Positions 32-12,601 of a stretch of DNA of 64,000 bases are shown in pieces. Each line of letters begins with the position of its first letter. The stretch's first letter is position 1. The notes beneath the pieces are model-generated. The model saw only the letters and a program-made list of their open reading frames with translations, had not been told where the DNA came from and searched no databases. Position numbers and translations under genes: made by a program. The DNA is from Hydrogenimonas sp. (lineage in GTDB: Bacteria; Campylobacterota; Campylobacteria; Campylobacterales; Hydrogenimonadaceae): NCBI GenBank assembly GCA_003945285.1, contig AP019005.1:310001-374000 (forward strand), read 5' to 3'.

Positions 32-832
32 TCAACTCTCGAAATAGTGCCCCTCTTTTGCAAGAATCGCAGCCCCCAGGGCAGTCGTAATCTGCGGGTA
101 GTCCGGGATGGCAATTTCGCGCCCCAGCTCATCTTCTATAGCTGCGACCAGTCCGGCATTGAGTGCCGGTCCGCCGTCGAAGTAGATTATGTCATTCAAG
201 CCGACTCTCTTTGCAAGGCGAATGATCCGTTTCGCGATAGAGAAATGGATTCCGGCGACTATATCCTCTCTGGAGTGTTCATTGCCGAGCAGGCCTATTA
301 TCTCCGACTCGGCGAAAACCGCACATGTGCTATTGATAGCTAGCGGTGTGCCGTCGGCCCTGAAGTGGAGTTCTCCAAGCTCTTCGACATCTATCTCCAG
401 CTTGGCTGCGGCAACATCCAGAAATTTACCCGTTCCTGCTGCGCATCGGTCGTTCATAGCGAAGTTGACGACATTACCCTCATCATCCAGGCCAATCGCC
501 TTGGAGTCCTGGCCGCCTATGTTGATAATGGTACGGATAGTGCCGAACTTTTCACCCGCCTTGCGAGCTCCGACGGCATTGGCGGTAATTTCGCTGATGG
601 TTTCGTCTGCCTCTTTGAAAAGTTTGCGCCCATATCCCGTAGATACGATATAGGCTATATCGTCCATTGAAATTCCGATATCTTTGACCAGCTGCCCAAG
701 GCTCTCTTTCGCATATTTGTAGAACATACTGCCGCTGCCGGAGACCTTTTGACCGACAATATCCCCGCTCTCATCTATGATAACTATTTTTATAGCGGTT
801 GAACCTATATCGATACCTGCAAAATATTGCAT
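32..832 (-). CDS. ATP-dependent activase of a 2-hydroxyacyl-CoA dehydratase-like enzyme
   Basis: A 266-residue member of the BadF/BadG/BcrA/HgdC activase family (ASKHA fold). Known family members are homodimers that bridge one [4Fe-4S] cluster and use ATP hydrolysis to push a low-potential electron into a partner enzyme. Seen here: the phosphate motif GIDIGSTAIK near residue 6, GGQDS at about 106, the two expected cluster cysteines C130 (DRCAAGTGKF) and C170 (STCAVFAESE), and the adenosine motif DGGPALNAG near the C-terminus. The open frame extends upstream to 1024, but the ATG at 832 gives the family N-terminus and overlaps the upstream stop as TGATG, implying translational coupling. The partner is almost certainly the preceding gene. 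It is the last complete gene of this operon inside the window; transcription may continue past position 1. Confidence 0.9.
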   Translation of the reverse strand: MQYFAGIDIGSTAIKIVIIDESGDIVGQKVSGSGSMFYKYAKESLGQLVKDIGISMDDIAYIVSTGYGRKLFKEADETISEITANAVGARKAGEKFGTIRTIINIGGQDSKAIGLDDEGNVVNFAMNDRCAAGTGKFLDVAAAKLEIDVEELGELHFRADGTPLAINSTCAVFAESEIIGLLGNEHSREDIVAGIHFSIAKRIIRLAKRVGLNDIIYFDGGPALNAGLVAAIEDELGREIAIPDYPQITTALGAAILAKEGHYFES

Positions 833-2196
833 CAACTCACTTCCCCTCTTTGATGGTTTTTTCGCCGTTTGCGAACTTTTAGCGACTCTACAAAGGCTTC
901 TATGCGCGTAGAGAGCTGCCCACCCTGCCCGGGGCTGTAGTCGGTCTCTACATAGAGCATAGGTATACCGAGTTTTTCCATCGCCTGCTGGATGCTTCTC
1001 TGCTCCATCTCGTAGACCTGGCACCCGGCGAAAGACTGGTAGATTACACCGTCAACCGCATACTGTTCGCACAGCTCTTTGAGACGACGTTTCCTGTCGT
1101 CGTTTTTGGTAAATATAGGGCAGGTGCACCCTTTGAGATAGCGGTCCGCCACGGCATCTACCATATCGTACATGAACCACTCGTCTACCGAAACCATATC
1201 GTTGAAGAGGCGGTTGGCCGAGCAGCTTTCGTCAGCCACTATAACGGCATCGGCCTGCTCTATCATATACGGCAGTTTCAGGTTCGGAAAAATAGGAGGA
1301 GAACCGGTATAGAGAATCCTCGGTGAGCGTCTGCCTGCGGCATTGAACCCCTCTTTTGCACGCTTCTCGACCTCTTCGCAGACTTTGAGCGTCATCTCTG
1401 TCCAGCGCTCGATATCGTCGAAAAAGAAGGCGTTGGTGATAAGGAAGATATCTTTTCCGAGTATCGGAACGGGATCGGATTTTCGAAGTTCATTGAGGCG
1501 ATGGTAGGCGAGCTGTGCACGTCCTACTTTGGTTATAGCCTCTTTGAGCCTGCCTCTGGTAATTTTCCGTCCGAGCCCCCTCGAGAGATCTTTGGTGAAT
1601 TTCCGTACGGTTCTGCGCCAGTACTCCCGGCTCTCTTCACTCTCTTTGACGCGCGGGAACTCCATGTGGTAGACGTCGTAATCCATCTCTTCGATAAGAG
1701 TGATAGCTTTTGTTTTCTGGTCGCATGTTGTCGGGTGGACCATGAAGTCAAGCTTCCCGACCGCGGGGATATCTTTTTGCTTCAGCATTCCCAGCGTAGC
1801 TTTGACCAGTGAGCACGATTTCGCGGGCATGAACTCTCCGCCGCTCTGCTCGTCCGTGTGGAAACCGTTACATAGCCTCACCGGTACGGCATCGATCGCA
1901 TAGATGATTTCATACGGGATCTGTATGCAGAGAGTTCCCACCGTCGGTTTTCCGCTGTGCAGAACCTCCCCGTTACAGTATACCCTCTCGAAGAGATCGT
2001 AGAAGTACTCCATTGATTTCAGAGGTTCGGTGAAGTCTCGGCGCAGATGGTCCAGCATCTTCATCGCTTCCATAGCTTCATGGCGCCTGTGGCGCGCTCG
2101 GGGATCTTCAACACGATGTTTTCGTCTCTGTACCTTTTTCGGCCCCTCTTCAGCCGTCGAATCTTTCTTTTTTACCGGTGCAGTCTTATCTCTCAT
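832..2196 (-). CDS. HgdB/FldB-like 2-hydroxyacyl-CoA dehydratase family protein (possible double-cubane cluster protein)
   Basis: About 454 residues related to the D-component of 2-hydroxyglutaryl-CoA dehydratase and to double-cubane cluster proteins, which reduce small substrates with electrons from an ATP-dependent activase. Family-like cysteine contexts are visible in order: GTLCIQIP, VRLCNGF, AKSCSLVK, HPTTCDQK, ADESCSANR, KGCTCP and FAGCQVYE. Only one dehydratase-type subunit is present, whereas the classical dehydratase has two (HgdA plus HgdB); a single-subunit protein next to its activase is the arrangement of double-cubane proteins. The N-terminal 50 residues are a highly basic extension. 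The ATG at 2196 is preferred over 2232 because it gives an 11-bp overlap with the upstream gene instead of a deeper one. The substrate is unknown. It could also be a true acyl-CoA dehydratase whose second subunit lies outside the window. Confidence 0.8.
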   Translation of the reverse strand: MRDKTAPVKKKDSTAEEGPKKVQRRKHRVEDPRARHRRHEAMEAMKMLDHLRRDFTEPLKSMEYFYDLFERVYCNGEVLHSGKPTVGTLCIQIPYEIIYAIDAVPVRLCNGFHTDEQSGGEFMPAKSCSLVKATLGMLKQKDIPAVGKLDFMVHPTTCDQKTKAITLIEEMDYDVYHMEFPRVKESEESREYWRRTVRKFTKDLSRGLGRKITRGRLKEAITKVGRAQLAYHRLNELRKSDPVPILGKDIFLITNAFFFDDIERWTEMTLKVCEEVEKRAKEGFNAAGRRSPRILYTGSPPIFPNLKLPYMIEQADAVIVADESCSANRLFNDMVSVDEWFMYDMVDAVADRYLKGCTCPIFTKNDDRKRRLKELCEQYAVDGVIYQSFAGCQVYEMEQRSIQQAMEKLGIPMLYVETDYSPGQGGQLSTRIEAFVESLKVRKRRKNHQRGEVS

Positions 2197-3169
2197 CGAA
2201 AAGATCCTTTTCAAGCCCCATCCGTTTGGCAAAACCGTCTTTGGTCGATCTGAAAAGCGCCATGTTGACTATATCCAGGTGAAGCGCATCCTCCTCCGGG
2301 CAGGCCGCTATGCACTTCAGGCAGAGTATACAGTCATCGCGCAAAATGTTTCTGCTTACCACATCGTCTGCTATATCGAATATCTGCATATCGCATACAC
2401 GGTAGCAGTCGCCGCATTTGGTACATTTGTCTCCCTCTTTTTTCAGTTTGAGAAGTGCGAAAGGGCTGAAAACGTAGTGCATGGCGCTCATCGGGCAATA
2501 GAAGCAGAAAAAGCGTTTTTTCACGAAAGAGCCGACAATGAATAGTGCGCTGAAAGCAATGCCGAACGTCGTCAGGAAGATAGCAGTATTGGATGAGAAG
2601 TCGATACTCCACTGGCTGAAGTCTCCTACGAAAAGCGGGGTAATGAGGCGGCCCGGGCACATTTTGCAAAAAGCGGCCCGCCACTCTCCGTCCAGCAGTC
2701 CGGCGCCGATGAGGAGGGGGAATAGTATGACGATAAGCAGAAAAATATATTTGATTTTTTTGAGAAATTTATAGTCGCTTTCGCTGTAGCTGCTGTAGGG
2801 AATGCGTAACCGTTTCCTGATCGCTGTTATCCAGTCCTGCATAGTCCCCAGCGGACAGGCGTATCCGCACCACGCCTTGTTGAACACCACAAACCAGAGC
2901 AGGAATGTCAGAAATGCGCCAAGGACACCGATGCTGGCCATGCTGAAGAGTCTATCCCATGGTCTTGCAAGCTGGTGCTGCAGCGGCATGAAATAGCATA
3001 CTCCCCCGGTTTCCCTGTTGTAGCCGCATGAGAATACGGGAATTTCACGTCCGAGATCGATCGCCAGATAGCCGCCGTAGACAAAAACAATGAAAAAGAG
3101 GAGTTGAATCCAGAATCGAAACTTCCTGATATCTACGCGGTTGATCTTTTGCAGAAGTCTATTTATCAT
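2186..3169 (-). CDS. NapH/CcoG-like membrane polyferredoxin
   Basis: A 327-residue inner-membrane electron-transfer protein. Several hydrophobic segments (about residues 20-40, 75-97, 125-145 and 190-210) surround two CxxxCP motifs (C101-x3-C105, then FYCPMSAM). A cytoplasmic C-terminal bacterial ferredoxin domain follows with two cysteine clusters, CTKCGDCYRVC and CILCLKCIAACP. This is the NapH/NosR-C-terminal architecture, in which quinol-derived electrons pass through the membrane to Fe-S centres. It lacks an N-terminal FMN-binding domain. The ATG at 3169 overlaps the stop of the upstream polyferredoxin by 11 bp. In this operon it could feed electrons to the activase (inference). Assignment to the NapH-like class is firm; the redox partner is not known. 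Confidence 0.85.
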   Translation of the reverse strand: MINRLLQKINRVDIRKFRFWIQLLFFIVFVYGGYLAIDLGREIPVFSCGYNRETGGVCYFMPLQHQLARPWDRLFSMASIGVLGAFLTFLLWFVVFNKAWCGYACPLGTMQDWITAIRKRLRIPYSSYSESDYKFLKKIKYIFLLIVILFPLLIGAGLLDGEWRAAFCKMCPGRLITPLFVGDFSQWSIDFSSNTAIFLTTFGIAFSALFIVGSFVKKRFFCFYCPMSAMHYVFSPFALLKLKKEGDKCTKCGDCYRVCDMQIFDIADDVVSRNILRDDCILCLKCIAACPEEDALHLDIVNMALFRSTKDGFAKRMGLEKDLFDER

Positions 3170-5498
3170 CTTTGATTACCACCTCTTTGAACGGTCTGTT
3201 TGTGCGGTAGCGATAGAGTGCGATTCCCCCTCCGATGACTATAAGAAGCAGAACGGTAAGCAGCAGGCCGTAGGCACTGGACTGGTATTCGCTTTTGGAT
3301 CGTCCGTAGATATCGGACTGTGTTACCCTGTAGAGGGTGCCGTTGTCGGTATATTTCGCCTCTACTATAAATCTTTCACGAAACCTTTTGTCGAACTTTT
3401 TCCATTCGGGATAGTAGTCTTTTATAAGAGTGAAGCTTGCAATACCGTTTTTGTCGGTTGTAACCATTTTGTTCCACCCGAACTGCGTGGTAAGAGTCAC
3501 ATCGGCACCTTTGACGGGATCTCCGTGAAGCAGCACCTTGAAACGTACCGTATCGCCGGTTACGGGGCGGGAGTAGAATGTTTCGTCCGCGGGACGCAGC
3601 CGGAGTATGTCGAAGGGTACGGAGTCGACGGTTTTGGCCATCATCTTTTCACGGTCGTATCTCTCCCGGCTGTGGTCGAAGCGCTTGAACTCATATTTTG
3701 CGACACGAACATGGCGTCGCTCTCCCTGATGTCCCTCATCGACATAATAGACTTTATAGTACCCGTTATTAGGCATTTTGAAAGAGACGCTGATACAGCC
3801 GCTCTCTTTCGGTTCTACCATCTGTGCCCGGTTATCCGTATCTACTATATAGAATGTTCCTGGCGCATCGGTTACACATGCCGGTCGTGATAAATCGCCG
3901 CCCAGAAGATAGACTTTGCGTGAAGGGATGCCGTTTCGGCCGCGGTGCATTCCGGCCCGCATACCCCGCTCGCCGTACCGTACCCCGGCCGGCCGCGGCA
4001 TATGGTCGCCAAGCCATACAGGATCATCTAAACCGACTTCAATTTTCGGTACATCGACCTTTTGTTTATAGATGGCTGCAGCGTGGCTGCCGCCGTGTGA
4101 TCCGTGACCGTTACGTGCTTTTCTGCCGTATGTGTCGATAACATAATCCCTGTAGATATTGATTCCTATGAAAAACAGAATCAGCATTGCCGCAAAAGGG
4201 TATGCGACAATCTTGCGTATTTTCGGCGCATCGATATATGCCATACGCCGATAGAGAATATAGAGGGCCCATGCGACGGCGATCCATCGGAAAAGGTGAA
4301 ATACCTGCAGCCATCTGTCTCCCCGTTCGGCGATGGGTGCAACGTCGATATGCATACCGAATCCCCACGCCAGACCCTCGACGATGCGCGCGGAGTTGCC
4401 GGTGAAAAAATACTCCAGCGCATGGCCCATCGACGCCAGGAGGAAGAGCGGTGCAAAGGCATAACCGAGCGTATAGAAGACTGTATTGAAATCTTTTTCA
4501 AGAATTTTCGACGCGCTCCACATGCCTGCCGCGACGGCTGCGACAGTGAAGAGGGTTGCATATAGAAAAGCGAAAAGTCCGGCCGGATCGACCGGTCCGA
4601 AGTCGATGAAGCTTTTGAAGAGATCCGCTGTTTTGACCCAGATCATTCGGTCCGCGATGTTGCTGCGTCCGAGTCCGTGATGGAACGCCATTGTGATAGG
4701 AATAGCGGCTAGAATCAGGATATATGCCCACACCTCCGCCTTGACTGTTTTGAACTTCTTATATATCGCGTGGCCCGGTTTAACCACTCTGAAGTTGATG
4801 GCTTCACAGGCATGGGTGCACTCCATACAGAGAGTGCAATCTTCCATGGAGTTTTTTTTGTTGAAGTTGAAGGGGCTCAATCCGTAGGGGCACGCTTTGG
4901 CGCAGTCAAAGGTCTTGCATTCGGCACATGCGGAGTTGTAAGAGCTGAACCATGTGAAGGAGAGTTTCCCGAATCCGCGCAAAGGTGTTCCTATGGGACA
5001 GATATATTTACAGTAGTCCATATCTTTGTAGAGATAGTAGAACAAGAATGCGACAACCGTCATGATACCAAACAGCATCGCCGTTCCCAGCGGGGTTCTG
5101 TATATGCCGGGGAAGGCGTAGTATATGCCCCACCAGCCGAGGAACAGTAGCATGACTCCTATAAAACGATTCTTCAACCATTTCGGCATACTCCTCTTTA
5201 GTCCATATCCGGTTATATATTTGCCCAGAAAACCGTGGGGGCAGATACCGCAGAAGATACGCCCGAATATCGGCAGGGTAGTGACTATGAAAAAGGGCCA
5301 GAAGATTCCCCAGAAGATGGCCGTTGTGAATATGTTATCTTTGGAAGAGTCGTAAAAACCCATGAAGATGGCGTAGAAAAAGAGAAAAGCAACAACTATC
5401 CGCAAGAGAAAAACGAACTTTCTGTTTTTAAAGATAAACCGGAAGAGACGGTTTTTGAACAGGTCGCTGTTTTCGCGTTTGATGAAATGCACCATCAT
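3159..5498 (-). CDS. Large membrane polyferredoxin with a His-rich, DUF4198-like periplasmic C-terminal region
   Basis: A 779-residue protein with three parts. Residues 1-235 form a polyferredoxin: CGICPHG (C83, C86), DYCKYICP (C163, C167), C191-x2-C194-x4-C199-x3-C203 and a classical ferredoxin cluster C221/C224/C227/C231, interleaved with membrane segments. Residues about 250-465 are further membrane helices resembling a b-type or redox membrane domain. Residues about 470-745 are soluble, with a His/Gly-rich stretch (GHGSHGGSH) and a beta-rich domain (PVKGADVTL, DKNGIASFTL) like the DUF4198/Ig-like domains of metal-related periplasmic proteins. One more membrane helix (about 750-770) and a short basic tail end the protein. 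The start is one of two adjacent ATGs at 5498/5495. The fusion of polyferredoxin and a possible metal-binding periplasmic domain is unusual and suggests electron transfer linked to a periplasmic metal or ligand (inference). Confidence 0.75.
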   Translation of the reverse strand: MMVHFIKRENSDLFKNRLFRFIFKNRKFVFLLRIVVAFLFFYAIFMGFYDSSKDNIFTTAIFWGIFWPFFIVTTLPIFGRIFCGICPHGFLGKYITGYGLKRSMPKWLKNRFIGVMLLFLGWWGIYYAFPGIYRTPLGTAMLFGIMTVVAFLFYYLYKDMDYCKYICPIGTPLRGFGKLSFTWFSSYNSACAECKTFDCAKACPYGLSPFNFNKKNSMEDCTLCMECTHACEAINFRVVKPGHAIYKKFKTVKAEVWAYILILAAIPITMAFHHGLGRSNIADRMIWVKTADLFKSFIDFGPVDPAGLFAFLYATLFTVAAVAAGMWSASKILEKDFNTVFYTLGYAFAPLFLLASMGHALEYFFTGNSARIVEGLAWGFGMHIDVAPIAERGDRWLQVFHLFRWIAVAWALYILYRRMAYIDAPKIRKIVAYPFAAMLILFFIGINIYRDYVIDTYGRKARNGHGSHGGSHAAAIYKQKVDVPKIEVGLDDPVWLGDHMPRPAGVRYGERGMRAGMHRGRNGIPSRKVYLLGGDLSRPACVTDAPGTFYIVDTDNRAQMVEPKESGCISVSFKMPNNGYYKVYYVDEGHQGERRHVRVAKYEFKRFDHSRERYDREKMMAKTVDSVPFDILRLRPADETFYSRPVTGDTVRFKVLLHGDPVKGADVTLTTQFGWNKMVTTDKNGIASFTLIKDYYPEWKKFDKRFRERFIVEAKYTDNGTLYRVTQSDIYGRSKSEYQSSAYGLLLTVLLLIVIGGGIALYRYRTNRPFKEVVIKDDK

Positions 5499-5505
5499 TT
5501 ATCCC

Positions 5506-6171
5506 TTAAAGTTTCAAATGTCCGGCCGCTACCATGACTCCGGCCAGAAGCAGGAGTACAGAAGCTGCGGTTTCTATATATAGTTTCTGTCGCTTGAACT
5601 GGATGAGCAGCTCTTTTGCAACAGCGCCGAGTATGAAGCCGTAGAAGAGGAGCGATACCGCTACACTGCCGAGTCCGAACGCCAGTCCGTACAGTGCTCC
5701 CCGGACCGGAGAAGCGCCGGCTGCAGATACAGAGACCAGTGAAAGGAGCGGGGCGCAGAGATTGAGTGACAGGAGCATCCCCATTGTGAAAACGGCACCG
5801 GGCCCGAACGAGTTGAAGCGTGATAACAGGCCGACCGCTCCGCATCGGCGTGGGGTGCGGTGAAACTGCCGGAAGATAAGCCAAACCGCCGTTGCAATCA
5901 TGATAGACCCCATCAATAACCGGGCACTCTCGGTGTCTGCAAGAGCCTCCCGTATGCCGGACGATGCGAATGAGGCAGCAGCAGCTATACCGCTGTAGGA
6001 GACGATTCGGCCGGCACTGAATATGCCGACCGTATACATAGAGTCCCTGACTGAACCTGAGTTGTGAACCAGAAGCGGCGCAAGTATCGGTGAACAGGAG
6101 AGCATACAGGCGCTCGACCCGTAAGCTACACCCATTAGAAAGATAGTCAGAACCGGAACAGTTTCCAACAA
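5506..6171 (-). CDS. CcdA/DsbD- or TauE/SafE-like small polytopic membrane protein
   Basis: A 221-residue, almost wholly hydrophobic protein with about six membrane segments. It carries a cysteine in the first segment (SACMLSC, followed by SPILAPLL) and another in a later one (LSLNLCAPLL), both beside prolines. That pattern recalls CcdA/DsbD-type thiol transporters and the related sulfite-exporter/UreH-like families, which move reducing equivalents or ions across the inner membrane. The start is a TTG at 6171 preceded by AGAGG at suitable spacing; I see no better ATG. It lies 9 bp after the TonB receptor gene and 7 bp before the polyferredoxin gene, so it belongs to the same operon. Family placement between CcdA and TauE/SafE is unsure. 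Confidence 0.65.
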   Translation of the reverse strand: MLETVPVLTIFLMGVAYGSSACMLSCSPILAPLLVHNSGSVRDSMYTVGIFSAGRIVSYSGIAAAASFASSGIREALADTESARLLMGSIMIATAVWLIFRQFHRTPRRCGAVGLLSRFNSFGPGAVFTMGMLLSLNLCAPLLSLVSVSAAGASPVRGALYGLAFGLGSVAVSLLFYGFILGAVAKELLIQFKRQKLYIETAASVLLLLAGVMVAAGHLKL

Positions 6172-6180
6172 TGGCCTCTG

Positions 6181-8364
6181 TCAGAAAGTGTACTTGAGTC
6201 CGACGTAGTATACGCGGCCGGGATCCACAGTGATACTTGCATCTTCTGCATCAAGTTGTCCATCCCCGTTTCTGTCGGAGAATAGATAGACGGTGCGATA
6301 GTATTGTTTGTCGGTGATATTGTCGCATCTGAGATAGAACTCGAAAGGATTGCCTTTGACTTTGGTGTTGTATCTCAGTTGAAGATTCATAATGCCGTAA
6401 CCAGGCATTTCGACGAGGTTGGTCTCATCGGCATAGTATCCTGACTGGCCGTAGTTTTCGGCTATAATCATCCATCCCGGCGCTGCTGTAATCGGTATGT
6501 AGGTATAGAGGTCGAACACATGTTTCGGAGTCCTTGGAAGCCGGTTGTTGCTGATGTCGTATGTGATATCCCCAGCTGATCGATAAACAGGATCCAAGTC
6601 GACCGTAAAGGGATCGTGGGAGGTATACTTTGCATCCAGGTAGGTATATGAGAGGTCGAAGTAGACAGGTTTGCTGCGATCGGTCTTCATGGAGAGCTCC
6701 AGGCCGCGGTTTCTGGCGTCTCCGACATTGTCGAAGTATACATCCCCGTTACTGTAGTATGTACCTGCGTTTTTGGCAATTATATCCTTTGTATCGAGCT
6801 GATATACAGAAAGTTCGTAACCTATTTTGTTATCGAATACCGTACGCCTGCCTCGAATTCCGATCTCGTAGTTGTAGGTTTTTTCCGTTTTGATATCGGG
6901 GTTGTTCCGGCTATACCTGTCAGGATCGAAATCGAATGCATAGAGCTCATAGACACGCGGGTTTCTGAATCCGCTGGAGATATTGGAGTAGAGTGTTGTA
7001 GAGTCGTCGAGTTGATATGTGAAACCTACACGGAAAGAAAAGTTAGTGAAAGAGTCTTCACGCGTTATAGCGTCGGTTGACCAGTCCGTCCCGTTATAAT
7101 CCTTGGCGAGATGGTCGAGCTCATAGCTTTCGTAGTCATACCGGCCGTTTAGAATGAATGCCAGAGCATTTGTAACCATATACTTGGTTTCGGCATAGAG
7201 CCCGAAACGATCTTCCGTCGTGTCGTCTCTGCTCGACTCGCCGACATAATAGTCGGTTCCGCGAGATGTATAGTTTACAGTTCTTACGTAGTAGTCTTTC
7301 AGCTCTCTTTGTCCGATATCCAGCCCCAGCATATATCCCAGCTTTTGATAGACTCCCCGATACTCCGACTTCAGACCGTACTGATAGGTATCTTCGCTGT
7401 TATCACGCGTCCAGTCGTCATCTATTCCGTCGCCGTTTAGATCCTGGGGAGAAGATTCGTACGTATATCTGTCCACATAGTAATATCCGTTTACCATCAG
7501 ATTGTCCGTATCCGTGAGATCTTTGCTGTAGGTCAAAAAGTATCGCTGGATATCGGAGTCGTAGTTGTGGTTGTACGGGAGGTCGTTATCGCTGGCACCC
7601 GTAGGATCTATCTGGGCATTGGTGACGCCTGTTACACTGCCGCGTGAACTCTCTTCGTACTTTTTTGTATATTCCGCACCTAAAGTAATATCACTCGTAT
7701 CATCAAGGAACCATGTCAGCTTTCCGTTTCCGGAACCAGTAGAGTTTTCGGTCATATCCCAGTATCCGTTTGTGTAACGATAGCTTCCGTTCAATATCAA
7801 AGCGTACTGTTCCGTCGCATGGTTGAGGGTAGCCTTGTAGTTCTGGTAGGCGTATGATCCATAGTCGGCGCTGACGGTTATATCATCGCGGCCTTTGGGT
7901 TTTTTCGTAGTGATGATTATCGCACCGGCCATCGCATTGGGACCGAAAAGATAGGAGGCTCCGCCCTTGATGACTTTTATACTCTCGATATTGTCGAGAT
8001 TGAATTTGACTTTCCCTCCGTTTTGAAGAACAGGTACCCCGTCGATGACGATTGCCACTCCTGTATCCTCCCACATGAACTCCTGCTGATTGACACCGCG
8101 TATATGGATCTCTACGGTATCGCCAGAGCGGACATCGGCGGTTACTCCCGGAATCGTCCGAAGCGCCTCGTTGATATTTTTCGGATCGATGATCTCATAT
8201 TTTTCCTCATCGATGATATTTACAGTAGATGCTTCCGTTTTGGGATCGGATGCCATATCCTCAATCGTTGAAGATTCAACTTCAACAGTTTCCAGGGCGA
8301 TATCTTCGGCAGCGGCTATCGAAGAAAAAAGTACCAGGCCCGAGAGCAGCAAAACTCTTTTCAT
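6181..8364 (-). CDS. TonB-dependent outer-membrane receptor
   Basis: About 727 residues. A signal peptide (MKRVLLLSG...SSIAAA) is followed by a candidate TonB box (LETVEVE), a plug domain (about residues 35-150, with RTIPGVTADV, HIRGVNQQEF, IDGVPV, IKVIKGGAS and GAIIITTKKP) and a 22-strand-type barrel ending in the terminal aromatic KYTF. The frame is open to 8406, but the ATG at 8364 has AGGAGA immediately upstream and starts the signal peptide. It is the first gene of the minus-strand operon and divergent from the multihaem cytochrome gene. The ligand cannot be read from the sequence; metal chelates, cobamides or haem are all possible. Its operon partners are redox proteins rather than an ABC importer, which is odd for a TonB system. 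Confidence 0.92.
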   Translation of the reverse strand: MKRVLLLSGLVLFSSIAAAEDIALETVEVESSTIEDMASDPKTEASTVNIIDEEKYEIIDPKNINEALRTIPGVTADVRSGDTVEIHIRGVNQQEFMWEDTGVAIVIDGVPVLQNGGKVKFNLDNIESIKVIKGGASYLFGPNAMAGAIIITTKKPKGRDDITVSADYGSYAYQNYKATLNHATEQYALILNGSYRYTNGYWDMTENSTGSGNGKLTWFLDDTSDITLGAEYTKKYEESSRGSVTGVTNAQIDPTGASDNDLPYNHNYDSDIQRYFLTYSKDLTDTDNLMVNGYYYVDRYTYESSPQDLNGDGIDDDWTRDNSEDTYQYGLKSEYRGVYQKLGYMLGLDIGQRELKDYYVRTVNYTSRGTDYYVGESSRDDTTEDRFGLYAETKYMVTNALAFILNGRYDYESYELDHLAKDYNGTDWSTDAITREDSFTNFSFRVGFTYQLDDSTTLYSNISSGFRNPRVYELYAFDFDPDRYSRNNPDIKTEKTYNYEIGIRGRRTVFDNKIGYELSVYQLDTKDIIAKNAGTYYSNGDVYFDNVGDARNRGLELSMKTDRSKPVYFDLSYTYLDAKYTSHDPFTVDLDPVYRSAGDITYDISNNRLPRTPKHVFDLYTYIPITAAPGWMIIAENYGQSGYYADETNLVEMPGYGIMNLQLRYNTKVKGNPFEFYLRCDNITDKQYYRTVYLFSDRNGDGQLDAEDASITVDPGRVYYVGLKYTF

Positions 8365-8399: not shown

Positions 8400-8417
8400 T
8401 TAACAAGAATCTGTTAA
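8400..8417. promoter_or_regulatory. Candidate operator: 6-6-6 inverted repeat upstream of the TonB receptor gene
   Basis: TTAACA, a 6-nt spacer, then TGTTAA form a perfect dyad 36 bp upstream of the receptor start, within the 286-bp divergent intergenic region. Its size fits a dimeric helix-turn-helix repressor or activator site. No regulator gene is linked in the window, so the cognate protein is unknown. Confidence 0.35.
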
Positions 8418-8447
8418 CTATTTATTAAACAGCGGCGCAAAAGTTTG

Positions 8448-8650: not shown

Positions 8651-11041
8651 ATGAAATTAAATAAACGATTATCTGTTTTTCTTCCAGTTATGCTTATGAT
8701 GCAAGCGGGGACCGCTGCTCTTTTCGGGGCGGCCGGAAGCGGTGTGAAAGAGGTGTCGTACCCGAAAGAGCCTCCTTTCTCCCTTTCGAAGCTGACACCT
8801 TCGAAAAAGGCTAAAGGGTTCTACGAGCCGCTCAACGGCTACAACGTTTTCGTCAACTACGAACTGGGTATGCACTGTGTCGGATTCGATATGAGTTACT
8901 GCTGCGTAATACCGCCCTACAACTCGATACAGGCGCAGGCTGTACGCTCAGGGCAGGGCGGTACCACTCCACGGCTTCTCTCGCCGTTCGACGATATAAA
9001 GCTCTACTACTACACAAAGGACAACAGCTACAGCGAGGGTAACAAGATGCGCTACTGGTCCGTTTCTAAAGATGTAGACGGTGACGGCCACTTCGATTCA
9101 GCGGGCGACAATATGGCAAACTATGTATGGACCCATCTTTTTATATACAAAGACCTCGAGGGCACTATTCCCGCGAAAGCTTCGCAAAAAGACAGGCTGA
9201 GAATAGGCCGCCAGATAAAGGTGCGCTACGACTCCGGCCCGAGCGGCAAGCCGATGGCGGGCGGATATATGGAGTACGCCGATAGGGACGGCTCCAATGT
9301 CGTCTTCACCGATACCCTCGTGCCGGCCGTGAAAAACGTACCTCTGACTCTTACCGTCGCCTATATCTGGGATGCGCTGGGGCTTCCGCTCACAGCCTTC
9401 AACGACAGCAGAAGGCGGGGGACCATCCGATCAGTTACGCAGAGCGACTTTCAGCCCTTCCAGTACTCTGTCGTGCAGCTTCGCACCAACGAGGGAAAGC
9501 CGCTTCTGGACGAGAAGATGAGGATAGTGGAGTATTTCGGTACCAACCCTGTGGATATTCCCAACTGTTATGCCTGCCACTCGCGCGAAGGGAAAGCCGC
9601 ACAGATGGCGAGAGAGGAGGGGTTGAACTTTTCCGACAAAGAGTACGACTACTGGAAGAGCTACCCCGACACGAGTGAGTATATGGCCCGTCTCGCGGAG
9701 TCTTCGATAAACATTCTCTCCCTGCACGACGCGCACCACGGTACGAAATTTCTCGCGGATTACAAACCGGACGCCCCGGGCAACAGGCTGGGCAAGGTCG
9801 GGCCGGTAAACTGTGCCGACTGCCACGGCGACAATATATCGGGCAATCTGCAGTCTCCAAGGCCTACCGCGACAGGGTACAAAACCGTAAGAGCCAAACC
9901 TCTGACCGAGGCTATACACGGATTCCATCTGGCAATGGTCCCGATGCCTGATGCGGCCGGGCGGAGCCAATCCTGCCAGGCGTGCCACCCTACACATTTC
10001 CAGGACCCCTCCATGAACGACGACATGAATCCGTTCAGGGTATTTGACCGGTACGGCAAGGCGCGTTTTTCAGATAAAGATGTGCGTCAAAGCGGAGGCG
10101 GATGCTATGTGCGGCGGGATGCCCACTCCAACCCGGAAGCCGAGCCCCCCTTCTTCCTGAACGAATATGGAAAGTATCTTCTGAAGGAAGTGAGCCTTAA
10201 GGATGAACGCGGCAAGAAGATATCCGAAATGCGCGGCCTCTACTGTACGAACTGCCACAACAGAGTGGCGCAGACTTTCTATCGTACAGACGATCTGTTG
10301 AGCGTACAGAGGCTGGAGGGCAGGACGCTTCGCAACCGGAGTATCGGTGAAATAGTCGCAGTAATGACCGGCGGTGACGAAAAGAGATTCAAAGAGCTTG
10401 CCGACCCGAAAACAGGCGGAGAGAATGAAGTTCTGAAGTTCTATACGGAGCACAAGGCGGCTACGCTGGTGAAAAACGTATCGGCCCAGGGTCTGGAGCT
10501 GAAGCCGTGGAACCATCCCGAAGGCAAAGCTATCCCCTACGATGCGGTCTCCGGCGGAAGCGACTGGTGGCTCAGCGCAAGCGAACCGCACTGTGCGGAT
10601 TGCCACTTGGCACCATTTGTCGAGAGTATGGGCGGCAAATACTTTCCGATAGATCAACCGAACAAACTCTCTTTGTACCGCTACTCCAAGGCGCACGGCG
10701 ATATAGCCTGCCAGAGCTGCCACGAATCGATTCACGGACTCTACCCGACCCGGTACGACGGTGACACCAAAACGGTAGACCTGACTACGAGAGAGCAGGC
10801 TCTGCAGTACAGCCCGGACGGAAAATACAGCGGACCGGTAACTTGTGCCGCATGCCATACCGTAAACTCAAAGGGTGTTCCCGTAGAGTTGGCCGGAACA
10901 GCCTATGCCGACGACTACTGGGCCTCTGTGACTCTTGCGCACTTCATGCGTTCCGGAGACCAGAAGCTCTCCCTCAAGGAGCTTTTGAAAAAGTATCCTT
11001 ATGAAGAGTCAAGCCGCATCGTCGAGAAGGGGTGGAGGTAG
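8651..11041 (+). CDS. Periplasmic heptahaem c-type cytochrome
   Basis: 796 residues with a signal peptide (MKLNKRLSVF..., cleavage near AALFGA). Seven CxxCH haem sites are visible at roughly residues 306 (CYACH), 388 (CADCH), 442 (CQACH), 533 (CTNCH), 648 (CADCH), 687 (CQSCH) and 733 (CAACH). The first 290 residues contain no haem site but carry a conserved-looking block, NYELGMHCVGFDMSYCC, which may form a metal or disulfide site. AAAGGAGG lies just before the ATG. It is divergent from the TonB/polyferredoxin operon, so it could supply or accept electrons for that system (inference). It is not a NrfA, Hao or octahaem Otr-type protein by visible motifs; the substrate is unknown. Confidence 0.88.
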   Translation: MKLNKRLSVFLPVMLMMQAGTAALFGAAGSGVKEVSYPKEPPFSLSKLTPSKKAKGFYEPLNGYNVFVNYELGMHCVGFDMSYCCVIPPYNSIQAQAVRSGQGGTTPRLLSPFDDIKLYYYTKDNSYSEGNKMRYWSVSKDVDGDGHFDSAGDNMANYVWTHLFIYKDLEGTIPAKASQKDRLRIGRQIKVRYDSGPSGKPMAGGYMEYADRDGSNVVFTDTLVPAVKNVPLTLTVAYIWDALGLPLTAFNDSRRRGTIRSVTQSDFQPFQYSVVQLRTNEGKPLLDEKMRIVEYFGTNPVDIPNCYACHSREGKAAQMAREEGLNFSDKEYDYWKSYPDTSEYMARLAESSINILSLHDAHHGTKFLADYKPDAPGNRLGKVGPVNCADCHGDNISGNLQSPRPTATGYKTVRAKPLTEAIHGFHLAMVPMPDAAGRSQSCQACHPTHFQDPSMNDDMNPFRVFDRYGKARFSDKDVRQSGGGCYVRRDAHSNPEAEPPFFLNEYGKYLLKEVSLKDERGKKISEMRGLYCTNCHNRVAQTFYRTDDLLSVQRLEGRTLRNRSIGEIVAVMTGGDEKRFKELADPKTGGENEVLKFYTEHKAATLVKNVSAQGLELKPWNHPEGKAIPYDAVSGGSDWWLSASEPHCADCHLAPFVESMGGKYFPIDQPNKLSLYRYSKAHGDIACQSCHESIHGLYPTRYDGDTKTVDLTTREQALQYSPDGKYSGPVTCAACHTVNSKGVPVELAGTAYADDYWASVTLAHFMRSGDQKLSLKELLKKYPYEESSRIVEKGWR

Positions 11042-11233: not shown

Positions 11234-12601
11234 GTGATAGATTTCAAGCAGTTCATAAAATATTCCAAGCCGGGTCCGCGCTATACCAGCTATCCGACCG
11301 CGGTCGAGTTCAGTGAAGATTTCACATACGACAGGTATCTTGAGAAACTCAAAGGGCGTGACAGTTCAAAGCCGCTTTCGATCTACATTCACCTCCCCTT
11401 CTGCCGAAGTGCCTGCTATTTTTGCGGCTGTAACGTAGTCTTCACCTCCAAAGAGGATAAGAAGACGCGCTACATCGACTACCTGAAACGCGAATTCGAG
11501 ATTTTGGCCTCCAGCATGGATACTTCGAGCGAAGTCGTGCAGTTTCACTTCGGCGGCGGTACCCCCACCTTTTTCAGCGCCGAACAGCTCGACGATATCA
11601 TGAATACCGTAAAGGGGCACTTCCCCAATTTCACCGAAGATGCCGAGGTGAGCTGCGAGATAGACCCCAGGTTCTTCAACGAAGAGCAGATGAAGGTTCT
11701 CAAAAAGCACGGCTTCAGTCGGATAAGTTTCGGGGTGCAGGATTTCGAACCGGTCGTACAGCAGGCTGTCCACAGGATTCAACCCTACGATATCACCAAA
11801 GCGGCTGTCGATCTGGCACGCCGCTACGGCATAGAGAGCATAAACATCGACCTCATATACGGCCTTCCGTTCCAGACGCTGGAGAGTTTCAAAAAGACTC
11901 TGGAGCTTGCCCGCTCACTGGATCCGGACAGGCTTGCCGTCTTCAACTACGCCCACGTTCCGTGGCTCAAAAAGACGATGAGAAAGCTGGATGAGACGAC
12001 CATACCGAGCCCGGATGTGAAGCTTGCCATTTTGCAGTACACGATAGACTACTTCACCAACAACGGCTACAGAATGATCGGCATGGACCACTTCGCAAAG
12101 CCGGATGACGAGCTCTTCCGGGCGATAGAGAAGGGTGAACTGCACCGTAACTTCCAGGGCTACACCACAAGAGGCGGTGTGGATCTGCTCGGTATCGGGC
12201 TCACCAGTATCGGCGAGGGCGGGGACTACTATGCACAGAACTTCAAGGACCTCCCCGAGTATGAGGCTGCCATAGATGCCGGGAAACTTCCGTTCTGGCG
12301 CGGTGTGGAGCTTACCGAAGACGACCGTATCAGAAAGGCGGTCATCATGGATCTTATGAGCAACTTCAAACTCGACATAAAGAAGATCGAGAAGGAGTTC
12401 GGCATAGATTTCAGGAGCTACTTCGCAGAGGCTCTCAAAGAGCTGGAGCCGATGGTGGAAGAGGGTCTGGTTCAGATCTCGGACGATGCCATAACCGTCT
12501 CCCAGACCGGTACGCTTGTCATAAGAAATATAGCGATGCCTTTCGATGCCTATATGCAGAAGCATAAAGAGAGCAAAAAGACCTTCAGCAAGACGGTCTG
12601 A
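11234..12601 (+). CDS. hemN: Oxygen-independent coproporphyrinogen III dehydrogenase (radical SAM)
   Basis: 455 residues. The N-terminal motif PGPRYTSYPTA is typical of true HemN rather than HemW. The radical-SAM cluster is C57-x3-C61-x2-C64-x-C66 (CRSACYFCGC), followed by the HFGGGTPTF glycine motif near residue 105. HemN decarboxylates two propionates of coproporphyrinogen III in the cytoplasm during anaerobic haem synthesis. The start is a GTG at 11234 with AAGGAG about ten bases upstream. The GlpC-like gene follows 50 bp downstream; the same pair (hemN with glpC) occurs in Helicobacter pylori as I recall. Haem supply fits the adjacent multihaem cytochrome. Confidence 0.95.
   Translation: MIDFKQFIKYSKPGPRYTSYPTAVEFSEDFTYDRYLEKLKGRDSSKPLSIYIHLPFCRSACYFCGCNVVFTSKEDKKTRYIDYLKREFEILASSMDTSSEVVQFHFGGGTPTFFSAEQLDDIMNTVKGHFPNFTEDAEVSCEIDPRFFNEEQMKVLKKHGFSRISFGVQDFEPVVQQAVHRIQPYDITKAAVDLARRYGIESINIDLIYGLPFQTLESFKKTLELARSLDPDRLAVFNYAHVPWLKKTMRKLDETTIPSPDVKLAILQYTIDYFTNNGYRMIGMDHFAKPDDELFRAIEKGELHRNFQGYTTRGGVDLLGIGLTSIGEGGDYYAQNFKDLPEYEAAIDAGKLPFWRGVELTEDDRIRKAVIMDLMSNFKLDIKKIEKEFGIDFRSYFAEALKELEPMVEEGLVQISDDAITVSQTGTLVIRNIAMPFDAYMQKHKESKKTFSKTV

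Follow-up and report, generated by a model that had tools for sequence, protein, structure and literature searches.

A conserved operon joining a TonB-dependent receptor, membrane polyferredoxins and a predicted double-cubane reductase shares a putative promoter box with copper genes in Campylobacterota

Introduction

In pyoverdine recycling by FpvA, FpvG and PvdRT-OpmQ, import is followed by reduction in the periplasm and by export of the empty ligand through a tripartite pump. The haem system HmuYRSTUV also joins a TonB-dependent receptor to metal-removal machinery; we know of no hmu system that includes a double-cubane cluster protein (DCCP). In Bordetella, the copper TonB receptor CrtA is accompanied by CrpH, a PepSY protein and putative periplasmic copper reductase (PMC13038864), and CcoG, a cupric reductase of the polyferredoxin type, has a periplasmic domain that is Ig-like (PMC7558416). 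As described in these two papers, neither CcoG nor CrtA/CrpH includes an ATP-driven reductase. The DCCP of Carboxydothermus (6eno, 7yyl) is a single HgdB-like chain with an activase, and the physiological relevance of known DCCP reactions has been called unclear (PMC11971306).

Here we describe an operon of Hydrogenimonas sp. located in the window, by which we mean the whole 64,000-nucleotide stretch analysed (contig AP019005.1, positions 310,001 to 374,000). It shares with the Carboxydothermus DCCP the single HgdB-like chain, the activase, aligned pocket cysteines and a pass of the model NF040772, but the operon-linked proteins appear to form a separate clade that is tied to a TonB receptor and membrane polyferredoxins. 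Its 779-aa polyferredoxin has the architecture of CcoG/RdxA/FixG (PMC7558416), a membrane polyferredoxin with an Ig-like domain in the periplasm; however, it is longer, has no CcoG model among its NCBIfam matches and has an ATP-driven partner. CrtA-CrpH shows the same pairing of a TonB receptor with a putative membrane copper reductase, but there the reductase is a PepSY haem reductase instead of polyferredoxins and none is ATP-driven. In contrast to HmuYRSTUV, no HmuS/CobN-type chelatase is found in the window operon or among the common neighbours of the Campylobacterota loci, the CobN-like neighbours being those of three methanotroph loci. A literature search that left aside most subscription journals found nothing joining copper with TonB receptors and HgdB-type enzymes, or methanotrophs with HgdB-type enzymes.

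Results

Organization of the operon and its flanks

Six co-directional, tightly spaced ORFs on the minus strand make up the operon, with overlaps or gaps of at most about 11 bp given the starts assigned here. A preliminary description, made from the sequence alone, had read them in the order receptor, CcdA-like protein, polyferredoxin, NapH-like protein, HgdB-like protein and activase, and this order was borne out by the ORFs and by HMM searches:

32..835, minus strand: ATP-dependent activase (CoA_E_activ / BcrAD_BadFG; TIGR00241, PF01869)
832..2193, minus strand: predicted double-cubane-cluster reductase, HgdB-like, single subunit (NF040772; the ORF opens at 2232, with the likely ATG at 2193)
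2186..3169, minus strand: NapH-like membrane polyferredoxin (Fer4_5 and Fer4 matches)
3159..5498, minus strand: 779-aa polyferredoxin (Fer4_5)
5506..6171, minus strand: CcdA-like DsbD_2 membrane protein (PF13386, E 1.2e-19)
6181..8364, minus strand: TonB-dependent outer-membrane receptor (PF00593 barrel, PF07715 plug)
8414..8429, plus strand: degenerate, reversed copy of TTAAC-N6-TTAAC upstream of the receptor gene (9 of 10 positions)

On the other strand, the left flank carries a response regulator gene and then TolC, MFP and RND pump genes, which converge on the operon. This regulator-RND operon lies at L002 5404-12090 (genome 303404-310090) and is preceded by a perfect copy of the promoter box described below; its regulator has counterparts with 84-86% identity in two Hydrogenimonas-like loci (L053, L056). 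The RND pumps scored best as drug-type and not as CusA-type in HMM searches, a result consistent with an organic ligand being exported. A 796-aa multihaem cytochrome is encoded at 8651-11041 (plus strand), divergently from the receptor gene and with a common upstream region, and is followed by hemN (11234-12601). In methanotroph loci, CobN/HmuS-like chelatase genes lie beside the operon (L060, by HMM; L059 and L062, by position and size), and MacAB-like exporter genes adjoin it in L060 and L123.

The HgdB-like protein and its activase

The activase scored 237 bits with TIGR00241 (cut-off 125.4) and matched PF01869 with an E value of 5.8e-57. The HgdB-like protein reached 369.7 bits with NF040772, a curated double-cubane reductase model with a cut-off of 350, a value below which many of its operon-linked relatives fall (about 311-346 bits). 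Its closest solved structures are the DCCPs 7yyl and 6eno (E about 1e-79). The preliminary description had proposed comparing its cluster ligands with double-cubane structures; in the alignment with 6eno, seven cysteines (C102, C121, C140, C170, C337, C371 and C404) pair with cysteines and are thus putative cluster ligands, and this pocket set is invariant in 14 relatives. Furthermore, a scan of the entire 2.19-Mb, one-contig genome found one HGD-D gene, with the TIGR00241 gene adjoining, in agreement with the earlier reading of a single HgdB-like protein with its activase. No second dehydratase subunit was noticed in the left flank, where four genes were named by HMM. The two proteins are predicted to be an ATP-driven, low-potential reductase pair of the DCCP type. 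Ordinary acyl-CoA dehydration is disfavoured because the genome has a single HGD-D gene, and we consider dehydration by this pair very unlikely.

Membrane electron carriers and receptor

The 779-aa polyferredoxin has two cluster motifs and consists of an N-terminal ferredoxin part, a membrane part and a C-terminal periplasmic domain of DUF4198 fold. Its invariant residues are the ferredoxin cysteines, H274 and H359 in the membrane part and His609 and Trp675 in the periplasm, and Trp675 alone among them also holds in the short forms of the protein. The His-rich stretch of the periplasmic part, to which the preliminary description drew attention, is not conserved in relatives, and conservation across relatives revealed no invariant metal ligand set in this domain. 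A model of the domain (pLDDT 87.7) resembles the metal-binding Zcp and 9gcb, a Ni-bound DUF4198 protein.

With 82 bits, the NapH-like protein falls far below the cut-offs of the curated NapH models (213-234); the two genes above these cut-offs sit elsewhere in the genome. It carries two ferredoxin clusters and, across 32-75 relatives, invariant C48, C58, H65, C168 and C171, and the corresponding loops of the two true NapH-type proteins of the genome, read by eye, have no cysteines. Positive-inside reasoning, applied by eye, suggests that the four cysteines and H65 are probably on the periplasmic face; the AlphaFold model of the protein is of poor quality (pLDDT 68.8). In the CcdA-like DsbD_2 protein, C22, C26, C110 and C139 are invariant among relatives.

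The copper-receptor model TIGR01778 (NosA/OprC) is absent among the matches of the window receptor; for two other box-linked receptors it is the best match, below cut-off. In two other loci, the receptor gene is split across frames (L035 13962-16143, L046 3004-5080) by a frameshift or an assembly error. Selenocysteine was considered for broken-looking receptor and polyferredoxin frames and rejected, as no in-frame TGA accounts for them.

Conservation and phylogeny

A sample of 298 genomes of the phylum was scanned for DCCPs and yielded two groups: high-scoring proteins accompanied, where examined, by the activase alone, and lower-scoring proteins that lie in the operon, in 16 genomes. NosZ was weighed as sole client of the system and rejected as not obligatory, since 8 of these 16 genomes have NosZ (86 of 298 overall). 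A wider scan of collections, whose loci come nearly all from metagenome bins, placed the operon in Hydrogenimonas, Sulfurimonas, Sulfurovum, Sulfuricurvum, Nitratifractor and Arcobacteraceae. The gene order that the preliminary description had suggested looking for in other Campylobacterota was thus found there, and also outside the phylum (Methylococcales, Rhodocyclaceae, Thiodiazotropha and a Bryobacterales MAG), with 83 distinct loci in all.

The NapH-like gene adjoins the DCCP gene in 73 of 73 testable loci, and the gene order is therefore far beyond chance. The periplasmic-domain gene is present in 69/69 testable loci and the activase follows the DCCP in 77/82. Where both flanks were available (58 loci), a CcdA gene was found in 52, a TonB receptor in 53, ExbB in 20 and an RND gene in 18. 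In a tree of 110 DCCPs, a branch with SH-aLRT 100 separates the 78 operon-linked proteins from the 32 stand-alone ones; the tree was made by a quick method and has a few long branches, the operon label was taken from the locus list with linkage confirmed locus by locus, and stand-alone proteins were mostly viewed with 1.5-kb flanks (three with about 8 kb). The operon-linked DCCPs thus appear as one well-supported clade apart from stand-alone DCCPs.

A second form of the operon occurs in L037, L039 and L043-L045, where only the periplasmic domain of the long polyferredoxin is left and CcdA comes last; in L037 and L039, no activase gene adjoins it. Five genomes (G115, G256, G242, G121 and G088) contain fragmentary DCCP genes with in-frame stops that look like decayed stand-alone copies.

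A promoter box common to the operon and copper genes

The operon promoters have little in common beyond a direct repeat, TTAAC-N6-TTAAC, which takes the form TTAACA-N5-TTAACA in Campylobacterota. A perfect box was found in 28 of 42 Campylobacterota operon promoters, compared to 1.0 expected from shuffles, and 38 of the 42 match it at 9 or more positions, compared to 6.1 in shuffles. The box is absent from Methylococcales operon promoters. The copy upstream of the window operon agrees with the box at 9 of 10 positions and points away from the receptor gene; it proves nothing alone, because shuffles reach 9 positions in about 15 percent of promoters. As it is degenerate and reversed, the copper link of the window operon rests on its orthologues and on the perfect copy next door, upstream of the regulator-RND operon.

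When almost every position of the box was specified, only 9 matches were obtained across the 298 genomes, and looser patterns were therefore used. In nine genomes, TTAACA-N5-TTAACA yielded 40 sites versus 9 for reversed controls, several of these sites lying by unrelated genes or inside ORFs and not being copper-linked. An extended box in 61 Sulfurimonadaceae genomes gave 19 sites versus 1 reversed control. Four of the 19 belong to operon receptors, and another 13 to genes of three kinds, identified partly by HMM and partly by sequence likeness: DsbD_2 (6 sites, one of them shared with an HMA chaperone), copper-receptor-like TBDTs (4) and NosL (3). The last two sites are at a response regulator and an EF-hand gene. 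Other sites precede PCuAC, NosL, ccoN (with DsbD_2 beside it), ExbB-ExbD-TonB and a TBDT-PepSY pair. Besides the one at the neighbouring regulator-RND operon, the Hydrogenimonas genome itself has perfect boxes upstream of a TBDT-PepSY pair and of a copper-receptor-like TBDT with ccoN; the TonB receptor and PepSY_TM pair, which is CrtA-CrpH-like, lies under a triple TTAACA repeat (L156 7039-10526, genome C1:1611038 onward). Among the box genes identified, from the part of the sites scanned, there was no gene for copper efflux (CopA, CusA or CueO type), which suggests a role in copper uptake and allocation.

Of 106 distinct copies of the box (all loci, not operon promoters alone), 61 are followed by a -10-like hexamer at a distance of exactly 9 bases. 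A -10 hexamer 9 bases past the box is the geometry of a PhoB-type activator, and the spacing is as expected for a putative regulator of the OmpR/PhoB type. Upstream of the receptor genes, no Fur box scored consistently above shuffles, and no riboswitch (cobalamin included) or other Rfam RNA was found at the operons scanned. In H. pylori, CrdRS is a system that reacts to an excess of copper (PMC9449129), and the consensus of Campylobacter CosR differs from the TTAACA box (PMC3139631). These sequence comparisons indicate that the operon shares a putative copper-gene promoter box in the Campylobacterota relatives, and a link between the operon and copper is probable.

Discussion

We propose that the operon serves to acquire copper, with ATP-driven, low-potential electrons helping to release the metal once it is imported, a reading whose chances we judge to be close to even. 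The TonB receptor would bring copper into the periplasm, where the metal probably arrives bound to an organic ligand. In the cytoplasm, the activase and the DCCP would spend ATP to generate very low-potential electrons, which the two membrane polyferredoxins, possibly with the CcdA-like thiol carrier, would pass to the periplasmic side; the step from DCCP to NapH-like protein is putative. There, bound copper would be reduced and released, and chaperones such as NosL and PCuAC would take it over to supply cbb3 oxidase and N2O reductase. In loci with an RND or MacAB-like pump, this pump may export the empty ligand, and the system would be switched on by copper shortage. This import, periplasmic reduction and export of an empty ligand would parallel pyoverdine recycling, which differs in using iron and a PepSY reductase and no double-cubane protein, and RND linkage is seen here in only 18 of 58 loci.

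The preliminary description had combined the receptor, the membrane carriers and the ATP-driven reductase into one unit, and such a single functional unit is supported by the strict conservation of the entire gene set. Its inward route for electrons did not hold up as well: the outward direction is at least as likely because the NapH-like protein has invariant, probably periplasmic cysteines. Work on class I benzoyl-CoA reductase describes clusters below -600 mV and suggests that each ATP may contribute about 500 mV (PMC11971306), and since such clusters reach these potentials, outward low-potential transfer to free tightly bound copper is favoured. A polyferredoxin acting as a copper reductase has a precedent in CcoG (PMC7558416). 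We suggest tentatively that ATP hydrolysis at the DCCP could push electrons below about -600 mV outward and strip copper from ligands that hold it too tightly for reductants at the level of quinol or NADH, which would be an adaptation to sulfidic habitats poor in copper. Several points stand against the copper mechanism: the window box is degenerate and reversed, Methylococcales promoters are without it, the receptor falls outside TIGR01778, the periplasmic domain has no invariant metal ligand set, the H. pylori system CrdRS is triggered by too much copper (PMC9449129), and the chelatase in three methanotroph loci could suggest a tetrapyrrole.

The same copper system might instead run inward, the NapH-like protein donating electrons to the activase and the DCCP acting in the cytoplasm on the imported ligand or ligand-copper complex. 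ATP-dependent activation modules of the superfamily draw electrons from ferredoxin, known DCCPs reduce small molecules themselves (PMC11971306), and the NapH-like gene overlaps the DCCP gene. However, the gene set has no conserved cytoplasmic-membrane importer for the complex, and there would be no obvious role for the invariant cysteines that the NapH-like protein probably exposes to the periplasm; we consider this arrangement rather unlikely.

It is improbable that the cargo is a tetrapyrrole (haem, metalloporphyrin or corrinoid) whose ring or metal is acted on by the reductase in the manner of nitrogenase-like enzymes. HmuS strips iron from haem anaerobically (PMC12583661), CobN/HmuS-like genes adjoin the operon in the three methanotroph loci L059, L060 and L062, and one form-B receptor scores best against haemin models, but no CobN was seen near the Campylobacterota loci compared and no cobalamin riboswitch at the operons scanned, and the common box sits at copper genes with no haem gene seen beside it. 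The DCCP might also replace or protect a copper enzyme under copper shortage, for instance through the reduction of N2O or another small molecule, with the receptor merely co-regulated. DCCPs reduce azide, hydrazine and acetylene in vitro (PMC11971306) and the operon lies within the putative copper regulon in relatives; the receptor, periplasmic domain and CcdA are nevertheless nearly always linked to it, and only 8 of 16 operon genomes have NosZ, so that we give this explanation little credence. An ordinary 2-hydroxyacyl-CoA dehydratase or benzoyl-CoA reductase, for which distant homology speaks and nothing more, is hardly conceivable, as two different catalytic subunits are needed and the genome has one such gene, no second subunit was noticed in the left flank and the DCCP model NF040772 is passed.

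The preferred reading, copper acquisition, suggests a first physiological role for this enzyme class. DCCPs are well studied in structure and the relevance of their reactions is unclear (PMC11971306); the clade described here brings with it a receptor, electron carriers and a candidate regulon that make a role directly testable. What is new is the direct repeat at the operon promoter, a predicted element common to copper genes in Campylobacterota. The operon is conserved as a unit in many vent and sediment bacteria, organisms important for the turnover of methane, sulfur and N2O. If the proposal is true, it would give them an energy-driven way to obtain copper; few systems for the uptake of this metal are known in bacteria (PMC13038864).
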